Assembly (NCBI GenBank): GCA_027080775.1
Contig: JALWPV010000002.1
Coordinates: forward strand, 1-32,411
Source of the DNA: Acidilobaceae archaeon
Lineage (GTDB): Archaea; Thermoproteota; Thermoprotei_A; Sulfolobales; Acidilobaceae
Reading direction: 5' to 3'
DNA: 32,411 nt
The number at the start of each line of letters is the position of its first letter. Position 1 is the first letter of the stretch. This document shows, piece after piece, positions 6,610 through 32,337 of this stretch. A program made the position numbers and the translations under genes. The notes beneath the pieces were generated by a model. That model did not search any database. It saw only the letters and a program-made list of their open reading frames with translations, and was not told the origin of the DNA.

Positions 6610-6921
6610 CTGACGAGGGGCTACCTCGAGGCTAGGATTATAGAGTACGTCGCCAGGCTAGCGGTGGGCTTCGAGGACCCTGAGAGCTTCGAGCCCAGGA
6701 TACTCTCCAGGGCCTACCTAGACGCTGTCAAGAACGTGGCCCTGAGGGTTGTAGTGGAGAGGGGCGGCGCCCTCTACTGTGGGATATGCGGTAGGGGGCC
6801 CTACCGTAGGAAGGGCCTCTACCTCCACCTCAAGAGGATCCACGGGGACGACATCCTAGACCTCGTGGAGCTGGAGGTTAGGAGGCTCGTCTCCTCCTCA
6901 AAGAGGCGGGGGCGGGCCTGA
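6610..6921 (+). CDS. Small C2H2 zinc-finger protein
   Basis: This is a protein of about 103 residues with one C2H2-like finger, C-x2-C-x12-H-x4-H (CGICGRGPYRRKGLYLHLKRIH is split here as CGIC, then HLKRIH), in its C-terminal half. A basic tail (SSKRRGRA) follows. Such single-finger proteins are common in crenarchaea and their viruses and are usually presumed to bind DNA or RNA; no specific role can be assigned. The frame is open upstream of GTG 6664 with protein-like sequence (TRGYLEARIIEYVARLA). CTG at 6610 is the only plausible upstream start and has GGTGGTG 7 nt before it; GTG 6664 (85 residues) is the fallback. Its 3' end overlaps the convergent unknown gene by 44 nt. Confidence 0.68.
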   Translation: MTRGYLEARIIEYVARLAVGFEDPESFEPRILSRAYLDAVKNVALRVVVERGGALYCGICGRGPYRRKGLYLHLKRIHGDDILDLVELEVRRLVSSSKRRGRA

Positions 6922-13668: not shown

Positions 13669-14442
13669 CTAGCCCGGCTCCCGGTATAACCCAGGCCAGA
13701 CCCCCCTCCTCCTGAGCATGGCCCTCACGTGGGGGTAGAGCGTGACCACCTCCGGCTCCAGCTCCCCGGGGAGGCGGGGGTCTATGGAGTAGAGCCTCTC
13801 GAGGAGCCCCGCTACGGCCTTCTCGTCGTCGAAGCCGAGGACTAGGGCCGGCCTGTAGTCCCTGCCGGGCACCAGGCCCTCCCCGGCTAGCCTCTCGAGG
13901 GCGCGCAGCTGGAGCTCGAAGGCCCAGGAGGCCGCCCCGGTCACCCTCTCGAAGGTCTCGGGGCTCGCGGCCTTGAGGGACACCCTGAAGAACACCCTGC
14001 CCCTCCCCGCGGCTCTGAGGAGGTCGCGGGGCTCCACCCTCCCGGCCCCTACGAGGATCCCGTTGGTCTCCACCACGAAGACTGCGCGGGGGAGGCGTGC
14101 GAGGACCCCGCGGGCCAGCTCGACGAGGTGCCACCACCCGATCGTGGGCTCGCCACCCGTGAGCCTCGCAACATAAACCCTACGCCCGCGAGCCTCCAAG
14201 GCGAGCCTCTTCGCCGCTTCCCCCGGGCCCAGGAGCACGCCCCCGCCGGCCTTGTAGGCGAACCTCCAGGCCCAGCAGAAGGCGCACCTGAGGTTGCAGC
14301 CTATCACATCACCGGCCACGTTGCCCCCGTAGTGACGGCTCCACCTGAACCTAGCGTACCTCCTAAGCTGCACCCCACCCCTCCAGGGGGCGACGAGGGG
14401 CTCTAGCCTCTCAGCCAGCCGCAGGGGGTCGAAGCCAGGCAG
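13669..14442 (-). CDS. Radical SAM protein
   Basis: This archaeal radical S-adenosylmethionine protein has the cluster-binding motif C-x3-C-x2-C in DVIGCNLRCAFCWAWRF, the SAM-contact GGEPT motif (RLTGGEPTIGWWHLVEL), then ETNG and RVSLKA strands. Its substrate is unknown; it resembles stand-alone activase-like radical SAM proteins, but no glycyl-radical partner lies nearby. The GTG at 14373 sits too close to the cluster motif, and the frame upstream reads like protein (FDPLRLAERLEPLVAPWRGG) with no ATG, GTG or TTG. I therefore choose CTG 14442, preceded by GAGGTGGACC, for a 257-residue product. A TATA-like GTATAG at 14472 would start transcription only ~6 nt upstream, so the ribosome site may not be in that transcript. 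Confidence 0.83.
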   Translation of the reverse strand: MPGFDPLRLAERLEPLVAPWRGGVQLRRYARFRWSRHYGGNVAGDVIGCNLRCAFCWAWRFAYKAGGGVLLGPGEAAKRLALEARGRRVYVARLTGGEPTIGWWHLVELARGVLARLPRAVFVVETNGILVGAGRVEPRDLLRAAGRGRVFFRVSLKAASPETFERVTGAASWAFELQLRALERLAGEGLVPGRDYRPALVLGFDDEKAVAGLLERLYSIDPRLPGELEPEVVTLYPHVRAMLRRRGVWPGLYREPG

Positions 14443-26731: not shown

Positions 26732-28798
26732 GTGAGGGTCGCCCCCTGGATCGCGCTCCTAGTCCTAGGCCTCGCGGCCCTGGCGCCCCTCGCCGGGGCC
26801 CTCCAGTCCCCGCCGCCGCCTGAGAAGGGCCTCAACGGGGTGGTGAGCCCCCTCCCAGCTCTGCCTGCTGTAGCTAACTCGACGAGCGGCTTCAGGATAG
26901 TGGCTGCCAAGGAGGTCTCGAGCGTCGAGGTGTTCACGGTCTACTACAACGCCTCGACGGGGCGCCTAGGGGTCTACTCCAAGGCCTACAAGCCCGTGCT
27001 CCTCTCGAGTGGTGGGGGCCTCTACACCTACGAGGTCAGGGCCAGCCTCCCACCGGGCCTCTACGACCTCTACATAACCTACAAGGACGGCTCCAAGGCC
27101 TTCGACCCCCGCTCCCTCTGGGTCATCCCCAGGGGCCTCGGGAGGGTTAGGGTGATACACCTTACCGACCTCCACTTCGGGGCCGGGGACTCCGACTACA
27201 AGCTCACAGCCTACCTCCTCGCGCAGGCGTTCAACGCCACCCTCATAATAAACACGGGGGACGAGGCCGACACGGCTGACGTGCACCAGTACTACCAGAG
27301 CCTGGCGTACCGGTACACGTTCGCCTACAGCGTGCCCGAGGTCCTGGTGCCGGGGAACCACGACTACCCGCCCGGCAACTTCTACAGGTACTACGGCAAC
27401 ACTACGGTGATCTGCTGGAGGCCCCTCCCATGGCTACTGGTCACGGGCGGCTACACGTGGGAGGTGGGCCACTTCACCGAGGCCCAGATAAGGGCGATAG
27501 CCTCGTGCCTCCAGGCCAACAGTGATGCGGCAGTGAAGATACTCATAATGCACCACCCGGTCTTCTACTGGCAGGGGGCCGTGAAGCTGCCCCCCACGTA
27601 CCCCTTCAAGGACCCGCACAAGGACCCCCATAGCCCCCTCAGCTACTACTGGGGCGCCCCCGAGGTCCTCGAGAAGGGCCTCCTCCGGCAGCTCCTCGAG
27701 TTGATAGTGAAGTACAACGTCACCGTGGTCCTGGCGGGCCACATACACAGGGACCAGTACGTCGTCTACGAGCCCCCGGGCGGTGGGGTGCACTACTTCA
27801 TAACCACAACGACCTCCGGCCACAACAAGGCGAGGCCCAACTACAATGGCGTCCAAGTCATTGACTTCTACCCTAACGGCACCATAAAGTTCCCCTACGC
27901 CCCACCATTCTTCATAGGCTTCAAGAACGCCAGCAGGGCGACGGTCTACAATAGCATACCAACCGACCCCCACCCCAAGAGGGCCCCGAGCGGCTACGTC
28001 TACCTGCACGCCAACCTCATAGTGGGCCCCGGCGCCTACACCCTCATGGTGACTAACAGGTACACCTACCCGCTGGAGAGCGTGGTGGTCCTGCCGCTCC
28101 CAGCCCTCCACGTTGCCCAGGTACTCAACTCGACCACCAAGAAGGGCTCCAGCATCGAGGTCCTCGACTACAGGAACGTCACGCTGCCCACGGGGGCGGA
28201 GTACGCCTTCCTCGCCGTCAAACTCCACGTGGTCCCGCAGAGCAGCGCCACGCTAATGGTAGCGGCGAAGCCCGACAAGGAGCCCCCCAGGGCCTCACTC
28301 GAGTACACGATACCCTCGAAGCCCGTGGCGGGCGAGGGGCTTAGGGTCTTCATAAGGGTAAGCGATGACTCCTCCGGCCTCCTAGGCCAGCCAGCAGTCT
28401 CGGTGGTAGACGACAAGGGTAGGACCGTCAAGGCCCAGGTTCTCATGTACCCCACGAGCGTGCCCGGAGACATGTTCCTCTACATACCCTCGACTCCGAG
28501 CGACGCCTCCTACCTCCTGGTGAAGGTCAGGGCGTCGGACCCGGCGGGCCACACAGGCGTTAGCACGATCAAGATACCCCTAGCCGCCCCACCGGCAACC
28601 ACGACCACGGCGACGCATTCGATGGCGACGAGTACCCACACGACGCAGGCGAGCAGCGCATCCACGCAGGCCGCGAGCACCCCGGCGACGCCGTCAACAA
28701 CCACTGGTAAGGCTAGGAGCAGCGCGCTCGTCTGGGCGGCAGTCGGGGTCGTGATTGTCATAGTAATCGCTGCTGCCGTGCTGCTGGCGAGGCGCTAG
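26732..28798 (+). CDS. Membrane-anchored extracellular metallophosphoesterase
   Basis: This 688-residue calcineurin-like phosphoesterase is exported by an N-terminal signal peptide (residues 5-24) and held by a C-terminal TM segment. An N-terminal beta domain (~50-135) precedes the dimetal catalytic core: DLH (D146, H148), GDE (D177), GNHD (N209-D211), HHP (H274-H275) and GHIH (H337, H339). A beta-rich region to ~590, a Thr/Ser/Ala stalk (~625-660) and the tail ALVWAA ... VLLARR follow. It would hydrolyse a phosphate mono- or diester outside the cell. The position directly after an ABC importer suggests it releases the importer's substrate, or phosphate, which is inference. The start is GTG 26732. 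The stop is interlocked with the RNA ligase stop in CTAG. Confidence 0.9.
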   Translation: MRVAPWIALLVLGLAALAPLAGALQSPPPPEKGLNGVVSPLPALPAVANSTSGFRIVAAKEVSSVEVFTVYYNASTGRLGVYSKAYKPVLLSSGGGLYTYEVRASLPPGLYDLYITYKDGSKAFDPRSLWVIPRGLGRVRVIHLTDLHFGAGDSDYKLTAYLLAQAFNATLIINTGDEADTADVHQYYQSLAYRYTFAYSVPEVLVPGNHDYPPGNFYRYYGNTTVICWRPLPWLLVTGGYTWEVGHFTEAQIRAIASCLQANSDAAVKILIMHHPVFYWQGAVKLPPTYPFKDPHKDPHSPLSYYWGAPEVLEKGLLRQLLELIVKYNVTVVLAGHIHRDQYVVYEPPGGGVHYFITTTTSGHNKARPNYNGVQVIDFYPNGTIKFPYAPPFFIGFKNASRATVYNSIPTDPHPKRAPSGYVYLHANLIVGPGAYTLMVTNRYTYPLESVVVLPLPALHVAQVLNSTTKKGSSIEVLDYRNVTLPTGAEYAFLAVKLHVVPQSSATLMVAAKPDKEPPRASLEYTIPSKPVAGEGLRVFIRVSDDSSGLLGQPAVSVVDDKGRTVKAQVLMYPTSVPGDMFLYIPSTPSDASYLLVKVRASDPAGHTGVSTIKIPLAAPPATTTTATHSMATSTHTTQASSASTQAASTPATPSTTTGKARSSALVWAAVGVVIVIVIAAAVLLARR

Positions 28799-29964
28799 TC
28801 GAGGGGGCTTATGCCGGTCCTCAGTATCTTCCTCAGCTCCTCCTCGCTTTTCTTGTGCTTCAGGAACCTAGCCCTAACGTAGCCCTCCCCCGCCTCTATA
28901 CTCACCACGGATAGGGGGACGCCCATGCCAGCGCTGTAGGCGGTGAACTCCTCCAGCTCCTCCATGCTGGCGAAGGTTAGGGTGAACTCCTCCGCGAGGG
29001 GCTCGCCCCTCGCGAGGGTCCTCACGGCCTCTATGGCTGGCTCGAGGAGGGCGGCGCCGAGCCTCTCGGCCTCGGCCCTCAGCCTATCCTCGTCCCACCC
29101 CTCCTCTATTGCCTTGAATATCTGCCTGAGCACCCTGGGGAATATGAATGTGCGCCCCTCGTCGAAGGGGTACCTCATACCCAGCTCTATGTCGTGGACG
29201 TTCGTGTAGCTCGTAGTATACTTCAGCGGCTCCACCCTGTACTCGGGGTCCTTGAGGACCACCCCCTCCCTGCCGAGCTCCTCGAGGCCCCTAGTCGCCT
29301 CGAGTATCTCCCTCCAGTCATCCTTCAGGAACACGCCCAGCTGGGGCACGTTCCTCAGGCCGGCCTCCTCAGCGAGCCTCCTCCTCTCGGCTACCGGCAG
29401 CGGCTCTAGGCCCCGGGTGAATATGTCGAAGACGAAGTAGTCCCACTCGGGGGCCTCGGGGTAGTAGTAGCGGGTGTAGGGGTTCTCGAGGCCCACAACC
29501 TCCCCCGCTATCACGGCCTCCTCGCCGAGGGCCTCGAAGGCCCTCTCGAGGGCCCTGCCGTACTTCCTCCTCATCCTAGCGGTGGTGTAGGGGCAGATGT
29601 AACCGCCGCGGGTGAAGGCGTAGACCTCTCCCTCTATCCTGGCTACCCTGACGTTGTGGCCGTCCATCTTCTCCTCGACGACTACCTCGTCTATGAAGTG
29701 CCTGGGAACGGCCCTGCCGAGGAGGAGGATCCTCCTGATGTGGGGGTACCCCTCGATGACCCTCACAGCGCCGCTCCTAGTCAAGACGACGCTCGTGCCC
29801 TCGTAGTGCTCGCCCACGTCCCTCCTGAGGACGATGTAGGTCAGGCCGTGGTACCTGAGGACCCTGGAGGCCCTCCCCTCGAGGAGCCTCCGAGCCCTCT
29901 CAACGCTAAGCCCGAGGGCCTCGGCCAGCACGGGCGCGAGGTCAGCCTGCCCACTCGCCTCCAG
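28795..29964 (-). CDS. Archaeal RNA ligase (Pab1020/Rnl3-like)
   Basis: This ATP-dependent RNA ligase of the archaeal homodimeric type joins RNA ends through an enzyme-adenylate. The nucleotidyltransferase motifs are clear: motif I VVEEKMDGHNVRVAR with the adenylated lysine, FTRGGYICPYTT, motif III YFVFDIFTRG, motif IV EGVVLKDP and motif V LKYTTSYT. A C-terminal helical dimerisation domain completes the ~380-390 residues. GTG 29931 has no ribosome site. CTG 29964 lies 6 nt after GGGGGTGG and just after the upstream stop, so I prefer CTG, giving 389 residues with lysine 99 in motif I. It is in a run with UPF0200 and UPF0201 genes, which suggests an RNA-processing theme. Confidence 0.92.
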   Translation of the reverse strand: MEASGQADLAPVLAEALGLSVERARRLLEGRASRVLRYHGLTYIVLRRDVGEHYEGTSVVLTRSGAVRVIEGYPHIRRILLLGRAVPRHFIDEVVVEEKMDGHNVRVARIEGEVYAFTRGGYICPYTTARMRRKYGRALERAFEALGEEAVIAGEVVGLENPYTRYYYPEAPEWDYFVFDIFTRGLEPLPVAERRRLAEEAGLRNVPQLGVFLKDDWREILEATRGLEELGREGVVLKDPEYRVEPLKYTTSYTNVHDIELGMRYPFDEGRTFIFPRVLRQIFKAIEEGWDEDRLRAEAERLGAALLEPAIEAVRTLARGEPLAEEFTLTFASMEELEEFTAYSAGMGVPLSVVSIEAGEGYVRARFLKHKKSEEELRKILRTGISPLD

Positions 29965-29970
29965 CTCTCG

Positions 29971-29978
29971 CCACCCCC
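29971..29978 (-). promoter_or_regulatory. Ribosome binding site that supports a CTG start
   Basis: GGGGGTGG overlaps the last base of the UPF0201 stop codon and lies exactly 6 nt before CTG 29964, the usual spacing in this window. No ATG, GTG or TTG is in frame within reach. Confidence 0.6.
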
Positions 29979-30412
29979 TAGTCCGGCATGTCGTGCTCCC
30001 AGAGGGGCCTCCCGAAGGCTGTGGGGGGCGCGAGCCAGTCGATCACCCTCTCGGGCTCCGGGTGCTCGATGACCACTCTGATAGCTCCCATGGGGCTCTC
30101 CTGGTCGCCGCCGACGAAGCTTATCTTGCCGACGGTGGCGGCCTGCTTGTGGAGGTAGAACACTATCCTCCCCTGCCCCGCCCCCCTCTTGAGGACGCTC
30201 CTCGCGGCGTCCAGGATCCTCTGCTCCCTGAGGAGCCTGTGGAGCCTCCTGAGCCCCGCTATGCCTGCAGTGGCGACTAGGAGCTTCGTCCTACCGGCCT
30301 CCTCGACGTGGTAGTCCTCGATGTCCACTATCGACTTGACGGCCGCGAGCACCTTCTCGAGTGACTCGGTAGGCCTAACCTCCGCCTCCACTACAACCCT
30401 CCCACGAGCCAT
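29978..30412 (-). CDS. UPF0201 family protein
   Basis: This 144-residue archaeal protein of the UPF0201 (COG1325) family, with a ribosomal-protein-like fold, is often discussed as an RNA-binding, possibly exosome-associated factor. Family features seen are VEAEVRPTESLEKVLAAVKSI at the N-terminus, LRRLHRLLREQRILDAARSVL in the middle and the C-terminal WLAPPTAFGRPLWEHDMPD split as WLAPPTAFG and LWEHDMPD. No catalytic residues are evident. ATG 30412 has GGAGGAGC 6 nt upstream and lies inside the 3' end of the UPF0200 gene (38-nt overlap), which points to translational coupling. RNA ligase follows immediately. Confidence 0.93.
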   Translation of the reverse strand: MARGRVVVEAEVRPTESLEKVLAAVKSIVDIEDYHVEEAGRTKLLVATAGIAGLRRLHRLLREQRILDAARSVLKRGAGQGRIVFYLHKQAATVGKISFVGGDQESPMGAIRVVIEHPEPERVIDWLAPPTAFGRPLWEHDMPD

Positions 30413-30956
30413 GGCGTAGCTCCTCCGCTACCCTGGAGACCTGGGCCTCCAGCTCCCCGAGCCCCCACTCGTTGACGATCATGTAGTCGGCGAGGGCTAT
30501 AAGCTCCCCCACCCCGAAGTCGAGGTTCGCCCGGTCCCTGAGCCTCAGCGCCTCCCAGCCAGTCTCCCCCGGCCTCCCCCGGGCCCTCAGACGCTCCAGC
30601 CTCGTCCTGGGGGAGGCGTGGACCGCGAGCACGCAGACCCTGCCGAGCCTCGCGAGCACCGGGATCTCCTCGGGGCTCCTCGCGCCCTCCACTATAGCGC
30701 AGCCAGCCTCCCGGACGGCCCTAGAGACGTCGTCCAGCACGAGTAGGGCCACAGCCCCCCTGCCGTGCTCCCTCCTCAGCTCGGCGGCCAGCCCCTCAAT
30801 GTTCTCGGGGGTGGGCTCAAGGCCCCTCCTGGCGGCCTCCCTCCTAACGGCGTCGCCCATGGAGACCACGGGGCAGCCCAGGGCGCCCGAGAGCATCCTC
30901 GACACCGTGGACTTCCCAGACGCGGGCATACCTACGACAGCCAGGATCCACGGCAT
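30375..30956 (-). CDS. UPF0200 P-loop nucleotide kinase-like protein
   Basis: This P-loop kinase of about 193 residues in the archaeal UPF0200 family is related to dephospho-CoA and nucleoside monophosphate kinases. Walker A is VVGMPASGKSTVSRML at the N-terminus; VVSMGDAVRREA and IVEGARSPEEI follow, then lid-like arginines (RTRLERLRARGRPGE) and LRDRANLDFGVGELIALADYMIVNE. The substrate is not established. The open frame reaches ATG 31025, but that lies upstream of the predicted start of transcription and adds Pro/Gly-rich non-family sequence. ATG 30956, with GGTG nine bases before it, matches the family N-terminus. It is the first gene of the UPF0200-UPF0201-RNA ligase run, divergent from nurA. 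Confidence 0.88.
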   Translation of the reverse strand: MPWILAVVGMPASGKSTVSRMLSGALGCPVVSMGDAVRREAARRGLEPTPENIEGLAAELRREHGRGAVALLVLDDVSRAVREAGCAIVEGARSPEEIPVLARLGRVCVLAVHASPRTRLERLRARGRPGETGWEALRLRDRANLDFGVGELIALADYMIVNEWGLGELEAQVSRVAEELRHGSWEGCSGGGG

Positions 30957-31033
30957 GCCAACAGGCACCGGGCGCGGAGCCCGGGCCCCCGGGAGGCTAA
31001 TAGCCTCGAGGCCCCCCGGCTCCATGGGGCCCC

Positions 31034-31040
31034 TATATTA
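31034..31040. promoter_or_regulatory. TATA element between UPF0200 and nurA
   Basis: TATATTA is the only AT-rich stretch between the divergent genes. It lies ~40 nt before ATG 31081 (or 26 nt before GTG 31063, which would then be leaderless), and ~80 nt before ATG 30956. It may serve both directions. Confidence 0.45.
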
Positions 31041-31080
31041 TGGTAATACCGCTACTGTAGGGGTGGAGGAGCGCGGCGAC

Positions 31081-32337
31081 ATGCAGGCGCTAGCGATAGT
31101 CGACGAGATCAGGGCCACAGCCGAGGGGATAAGCCAGGCGCCGCTCCGCGCAGCCAGGATAGCGCCGAGCCTCCTCAGGCTCAGCGACCTAGTCCAGGTC
31201 AGGGCCCCGCTGGAGGACCTCGGAGCCCCGGGGGCGAGGGTCTACGAGGCAGCGCCCCACCTCCTAGCCCCGAGGAGGCCACTACCGCCGAGGCCCCCTA
31301 GACTGTTGTTCGCGGGGGTCGACTCCGGCAGCAGGGGCGTCGAGACCCCCCTGGCGGGCTTCGCCGTCGCAGCGGTCTCAGCCAGCCTCTCGGCCCCCCT
31401 GGAGCTGTTCGACTGGCCCCCTCTGCACCCGGGCCTCGAGCCCCCCGTGGAGGGCCCCCCCTTCCTCAGGGTGCTCCCGAACTGGGTCGGCTGGGACCCC
31501 CCGCTCCCTCGGGGGGCCACGGATAGGAACCCCGGGGGCGAGAGGTACGGGCCTGAGTACAGCATGGCCCAGGCGCTCGACGAGGCCAGGGTGTGCCTGG
31601 AGAACTGGGCCCTGGAAGTCCTCGCGGGCATGGCCTCGAGGCCCCCGAGGGGGGCGAGGGGGCTGGTGGTGCTCGTGGATGGCCCCCTCTACCTCGTGCC
31701 CGGGGCCCTCGCCTCCGGGGGCGCGCCGAGGGTCTACAGGGAGGCTTGGTCTAGGCTCCTCGATGCCAGGCTCAGGGCGATCAGGCTCCTAGAGGGCCTC
31801 GGGGTCCCAGTGCTGGGGGTGGTGAAGAGGGTCTCGAGGAGCAGGATCCTCTCCAGGGCCCGGGGGCTCGAGGCCCGGGTGGAGGCCTGCGTGGGCCCTG
31901 GGGAGCATAGTGATGAGATGATAGTGTATAGGGCCTACGCCGCCTGCGCTAGGAGGATCCCGGGCCGCATCTACAGGACCCCCATAGTGAGGGTTGACCA
32001 GCCGGTGCCCGGTGCCGTCAAGCTGGTCGAGTACCTAGCCGTGCCCCCGGGCCGGTGGCAGAGCGGCCCCGAGGGTGTCAGGATAGTCAGGCTCGAGTAC
32101 ACCCCGGCGACCCTCGAGATACTGAGGGACTGGGGCCTCGAGCCCTACCAGGCCTACAGCCTCGCGGGGATAGCCTCGGGGAGCCTCTACCCCCTACCGA
32201 TACTGGCGAGTGACAGGAGGGCCCGGGGGATAGCTAGGGCCGTCGCTAGGTTCCTCGAGAGGGAGCTGGCGAGGAGGGGCGTGCCCCTCAGCTACGAGTC
32301 AGCCCTCGAGGAGAGGCTCGAGGGGTGGGGGGTTTGA
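31081..32337 (+). CDS. nurA: NurA 5'-3' nuclease
   Basis: This is a 418-residue nuclease of the archaeal NurA family, which works with the HerA translocase and Mre11-Rad50 in end resection of double-strand breaks. The RNase H-like core shows the metal-binding aspartates: D81 in FAGVDSGSRGVE and D200 in VVLVDGPLYLVPGAL. Downstream comes the VLGVVKRVSRSRIL strand/helix and a C-terminal region with SLAGIASGSLYPLPI typical of the family. The open frame extends far upstream antisense to UPF0200 and is not coding there. ATG 31081 has GGAGGAG upstream; GTG 31063 is an alternative. HerA, Mre11 and Rad50, often neighbours of nurA, are not in the window but could lie beyond 32411. Confidence 0.9.
   Translation: MQALAIVDEIRATAEGISQAPLRAARIAPSLLRLSDLVQVRAPLEDLGAPGARVYEAAPHLLAPRRPLPPRPPRLLFAGVDSGSRGVETPLAGFAVAAVSASLSAPLELFDWPPLHPGLEPPVEGPPFLRVLPNWVGWDPPLPRGATDRNPGGERYGPEYSMAQALDEARVCLENWALEVLAGMASRPPRGARGLVVLVDGPLYLVPGALASGGAPRVYREAWSRLLDARLRAIRLLEGLGVPVLGVVKRVSRSRILSRARGLEARVEACVGPGEHSDEMIVYRAYAACARRIPGRIYRTPIVRVDQPVPGAVKLVEYLAVPPGRWQSGPEGVRIVRLEYTPATLEILRDWGLEPYQAYSLAGIASGSLYPLPILASDRRARGIARAVARFLERELARRGVPLSYESALEERLEGWGV

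Follow-up and report, generated by a model that had tools for sequence, protein, structure and literature searches.

Probable initiation of an archaeal RNA ligase at a CTG codon and evidence for CTG as a minor but regular start codon in its genome

At which codon does translation of a gene begin if the only conventional start codon in its frame has no ribosome-binding site? The question is raised by an RNA ligase gene in the window, a stretch of 32,411 nucleotides from the draft assembly (1.78 Mb; here G000) of a heat-loving Acidilobaceae archaeon. The gene (28795..29964, minus strand) encodes a predicted ATP-dependent RNA ligase of the Pab1020/MthRnl type, 389 amino acids long when counted from a CTG codon. 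It matches the RNA ligase families PF09414 (1.6e-27) and PF18330 (2.1e-21) and, over residues 23-388, the whole-protein profile TIGR01209 (1.9e-106). The Pab1020/MthRnl-type archaeal RNA ligases in PDB entries 5d1o (1.1e-65) and 2vug (3.5e-45) are its full-length relatives, and the KxDG lysine motif is present (EEKMDGHN), with K99 invariant. Compared with these enzymes, only the start codon is unusual; the enzyme itself is ordinary. The ligase gene is the third of three co-directed genes, after an AAA-type nucleotide kinase-like gene (30375..31025, minus strand) and a gene for a PRK00447-like RNA-binding protein of PF01877 (29978..30412, minus strand), whose TAG overlaps the ligase Shine-Dalgarno (SD) sequence. 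A plus-strand open reading frame from ATG 30799 (window 30375-32337) overlaps the opposite-strand AAA-type gene, which extends to 31025, by approx. 230 bases.

The initial annotation placed the start at CTG 29964, 6 nt after GGGGGTGG and right behind the upstream stop, and this arrangement was confirmed on the minus strand. The SD sequence GGGGGTGG occupies 29971..29978, and the spacer CGAGAG (29970-29965) separates it from the putative initiation codon (29962..29964). The first G of GGGGGTGG is the last base of the TAG at 29980-29978, which ends the RNA-binding gene in a frame other than that of the ligase. The ligase frame itself is open for 26 codons before the CTG, back to an in-frame TGA (30043..30045), and contains no ATG, GTG, or TTG from there to GTG 29931 (29929..29931), which lies 11 codons downstream of the CTG and is the sole conventional candidate. 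The ten codons between the two (29932..29961) are in frame. The 16S 3' end GGATCACCTC is found in G000, where the 16S rRNA gene is split over two contigs (C11:266049-266815 and C9:29994-30014). In this genome, the distance from GGTG to an ATG start is most often 6-8 nt; the ligase GGTG stands 7 nt before the CTG and thus at the preferred spacing. The SD likelihood ratio is 134 for CTG 29964 versus 0.1 for GTG 29931, in agreement with the earlier remark that the GTG lacks a ribosome site, and the start model described below assigns the CTG a posterior of 0.99.

Comparison with a sister species (G003) bears on the choice between the two codons. The sister ligase gene (L004/L017) is 82% identical, and its start region reads TAG-C-GGGTGG-CCCCCG-ATG-GAG-CAG-GCA-GAC-CTA-GCC-CCC-CTA, compared with TAG-GGGGTGG-CGAGAG-CTG-GAG-(GCG-AGT-GGG)-CAG-GCT-GAC-CTC-GCG-CCC-GTG in G000. 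In the aligned sequences, the sister ATG and the G000 CTG coincide: both stand behind a shared GGGTGG motif at equal SD distance and are followed by GAG, after which nine bases have been inserted or lost. The QADLAP codons (29932-29949) differ by three changes, all synonymous, and the codon that corresponds to GTG 29931 is CTA in the sister. Moreover, the aligned segment extends to Leu9, upstream of that GTG, in 11 close family members, and all of them keep this residue. The alignment of orthologous N-termini, proposed with the initial annotation, thus finds the segment before 29931 conserved as protein in relatives; together with the sister ATG, this supports a start at CTG 29964.

Translation from GTG 29931, with the upstream reading a product of chance, would be in keeping with the common use of GTG as a start in G000 and with a TIGR01209 profile that reaches only to about residue 13. 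The predicted structure of the ligase monomer (pLDDT 94) can also be read this way, as residues 1-5 have no confident structure and the first helix spans residues 10-17; the model is compatible with the CTG start and not decisive by itself. Against these points stand the missing SD sequence, the sister's CTA with an SD-backed ATG upstream, and the conserved DLA residues that precede the GTG. GTG 29931 was therefore rejected, and initiation there is considered highly improbable. The conserved ligase protein leaves no conventional in-frame codon as a suitable start. Initiation at a nearby non-NTG codon, such as GAG 29967, or a frameshift after initiation in another frame, for example at GTG 29974, is scarcely credible: the ligase frame is open upstream and GTG 29974 does exist in another frame, but the posterior of GAG 29967 in the start model is 0.01, the sister has its ATG in the position of the CTG relative to the SD sequence, and no slippery site was noticed. 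It is very likely that the ligase is translated from CTG 29964 and that CTG serves approx. 3-4% of genes as a fourth start codon, minor but regular, as judged from sequence comparison and start-codon modelling.

The second part of this reading was addressed by genome-wide inference. From G000, 679 kb of 1,783 kb were analysed, and from the sister G003, 507 kb. A further 400 kb came from another genome (G015), whose length of 1,669,696 bp matches that of Aeropyrum pernix K1, and Sinorhizobium pSymB contributed 400 kb as a control replicon. A mixture model placed each gene start from the coding boundary, the SD profile, and the spacing, with a generic component that admits any codon; each extra codon was then tested for the improvement in likelihood that it brings beyond ATG, GTG, and TTG. 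For 636 genes of G000, the estimated starts are TTG 213, GTG 178, ATG 165, and CTG 24 (3.7%). The log-likelihood gain is 17.7 for CTG, compared with 3.1 for the next codon, GAA, and zero for CTA, CTC, and CTT; an earlier run on 471 genes gave 17.6 versus 2.3 for the next codon. In the sister, the gain is 8.2 (approx. 9 of 398 genes, 2%; next codon, 1.5). G015 gives weaker support, with a gain of 5.7 (approx. 8 of 375 genes, 2%; next codon, 1.8). In pSymB, CTG again ranks first, but at the level of noise (3.2, versus 3.0 for AAA and 2.8 for CTT). The 228 gains of other codons across the four data sets reach a maximum of 3.11. CTG is the only codon beyond ATG, GTG, and TTG with support in G000, and its enrichment is above chance. 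The bootstrap range of the G000 gain is wide (3.8-34.1), and the SD term is necessary for the signal: when this was left out of the inference, starts were not localised and CTG did not stand out.

Three other approaches were set aside. Simple codon counts at SD distance were too noisy: a 2.1-fold enrichment of CTG was confined to the strictest SD setting, where it came from 8 cases, and a similar value was obtained in another frame. A first inference, in which the any-codon component was missing, also ranked CTG first; it was replaced because the support that it lent to G-rich codons was spurious. Genes that have no conventional start close to the coding boundary were also listed; the list consisted mostly of gene-finding artefacts and was not used.

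Individual genes add to the statistical signal, and the strongest case is that of ribosomal protein uS7 (L062:7957, minus strand; PF00177, 2.7e-47). Its frame, TAG-TCA-GGG-TGG-CGG-GCT-CTG, is open for only five codons before the CTG, and no conventional start occurs until GTG at codon 33, which falls in GKWSWVGV within the conserved region. In a protein search, uS7 was found in 57 of 60 relatives, and the matches that cover the N-terminal part all begin at query residues 3-25, ahead of codon 33. The start codon is CTG also in G002, a second, independent assembly that is approx. 96.5% identical to G000 over the ligase region, and ATG in the sister. As far as these alignments can tell, an essential ribosomal protein very probably starts at CTG.

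Within the window, the initial annotation counted three other genes with the CTG pattern; two of these were recovered, and the third was not found. The first (6610..6921, plus strand) encodes 103 amino acids of no known family from CTG 6610, with the SD sequence GGTGGTG and a posterior of 0.94; its first conventional start is codon 19, and the CTG with its SD sequence is present in the sister as well. The second, a radical SAM protein gene (13669..14442, minus strand; PF04055), is assigned CTG 14442 behind GAGAGGTGG with a posterior of 0.90-0.92, and its first conventional start is codon 24. The aligned codon is GTG in a genome of the same genus (G001). In the sister (L173/L183), the gene has ACG behind GGGGGTG and an in-frame GTG three codons upstream. 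As ACG is not an NTG codon, this case speaks against the general pattern; ACG may itself be a start there. A further candidate, CTG 30538, reached a posterior of 0.49 in a stretch that overlaps a gene on the opposite strand; it is probably spurious.

Outside the window, G000 and G002 agree in a CTG for the NTPase_I-T gene (L060:8848), for which the sister has ATG, and the Csa1 gene (L074:2692) has CTG in G000 and TTG in G001. An AF2212-like gene with the frame TAA-ACG-CTG (L052:19294) keeps CTG in G002 and in its paralogues and has TTG in G001. Several AF2212-like copies (L052:19094-19294, minus strand; L195; L166; L170) are present in G000 and G002, and the copies that were read start with CTG. 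All three CTG starts that were found in G002 (uS7, NTPase_I-T, and AF2212-like) are kept. In G015, an arginase-family gene (L204:9722-10567, minus strand; C1, about 230567) has the frame TGA-GGC-CTG with the SD sequence GGGGTG and no ATG, GTG, or TTG before codon 65, which lies inside the domain. This gene is a candidate for a CTG start, and its organism has probably been cultured.

These cases bear on two further explanations. The ligase CTG is covered by one assembly only, as the near-identical G002 assembly ends before the site, and the sister has ATG; both points would fit an assembly or base error that conceals an ATG or another start at 29964. Such an error is nevertheless very unlikely, since similar CTG starts occur in many genes and are conserved in the independent assembly and in the sister species, and errors would not be expected to yield CTG at SD distance in preference to CTA, CTC, or CTT. 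It might also be argued that CTG starts are sporadic, decayed starts and not in regular use, given their low frequency (2-4%) and the fact that several are ATG or TTG in relatives. This explanation is rather unlikely in view of the enrichment of CTG in G000 and its sister, with a weaker signal in G015, the presence of an essential ribosomal protein among the CTG genes, and the CTGs common to the two species at the plus-strand gene from 6610 and to the AF2212-like paralogues. The suggestion of regular starts at CTG in this organism has thus gained support from the genome-wide inference (3-4% of genes) and from uS7. CTG is a minority start codon in G000, well behind TTG, GTG, and ATG; at approx. 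3-4% of genes, it would be a minor but regular fourth start beside them.

A possible mechanism follows known features of initiation in this genome. SD pairing would hold the message while the initiator Met-tRNA reads CTG with a first-base mismatch, as is required for TTG. Because TTG is the commonest start in G000, tolerance at the first position is evidently high, and CTG would be a small extension of it. The GGTG core is stronger in the CTG version than in the sister's ATG version of both the ligase and uS7 genes, which suggests, from two cases only, that a stronger core compensates for CTG. Reinitiation by ribosomes that finish the RNA-binding gene is plausible at the ligase CTG, because the first base of the SD sequence is also the final base of that gene's stop codon. 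The ligase protein would presumably begin Met-Glu-Ala-Ser-Gly, with Met assumed as the first residue. A search for the initiator tRNA yielded one GGGCTCATAACCC site, on contig C84, with no tRNA match reported there; the sole tRNA-Met read has a G as its first base and resembles an elongator tRNA.

CTG is listed as a possible initiator in NCBI table 11, and sporadic single CTG starts are known. In annotated genes, switches to CUG are very rare (2 of 61,358 AUG, 1 of 5,080 GUG, and 1 of 2,468 UUG; Belinky et al. 2017, PMC5622118), and in Haloferax CTG starts have been described in small proteins (PMC12482152). G000 resembles these systems in using CTG as an initiator and differs in that several percent of ordinary genes, including uS7, appear to be involved, in contrast to rare or small-protein cases. 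No description of regular, genome-wide use of CTG in archaea at such a level was found in the open-licence literature. The rarity of CUG in annotated genomes is itself biased, because the Prodigal gene finder considers only ATG, GTG, and TTG as starts (PMC2848648). Aeropyrum pernix, of a related family, shares with G000 a GGTG-type SD sequence and TTG as the commonest start. The summary figures for A. pernix quoted in PMC5911459 (52% TTG, 28% ATG, 20% GTG; Yamazaki et al. 2006) make no mention there of CTG, compared with approx. 3.7% in G000 and, more weakly supported, approx. 2% in G015.

It is an even chance that in the Acidilobaceae and Aeropyrum as a whole the initiation apparatus recognises NTG with hardly any constraint on the first base, which would make CTG a regular fourth start for a few percent of genes, including the essential uS7. 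As Prodigal ignores CTG, a few percent of N-termini in the lineage, that of uS7 included, would be wrongly annotated. What would be new here is CTG as a regular archaeal start at several percent of genes, single CTG starts being already known. Structural work describes first-position C-U pairing as weak and accounts in this way for the fact that bacteria do not commonly start at CUG (PMC11497404); this lineage may offer a natural case in which such pairing is tolerated at initiation.
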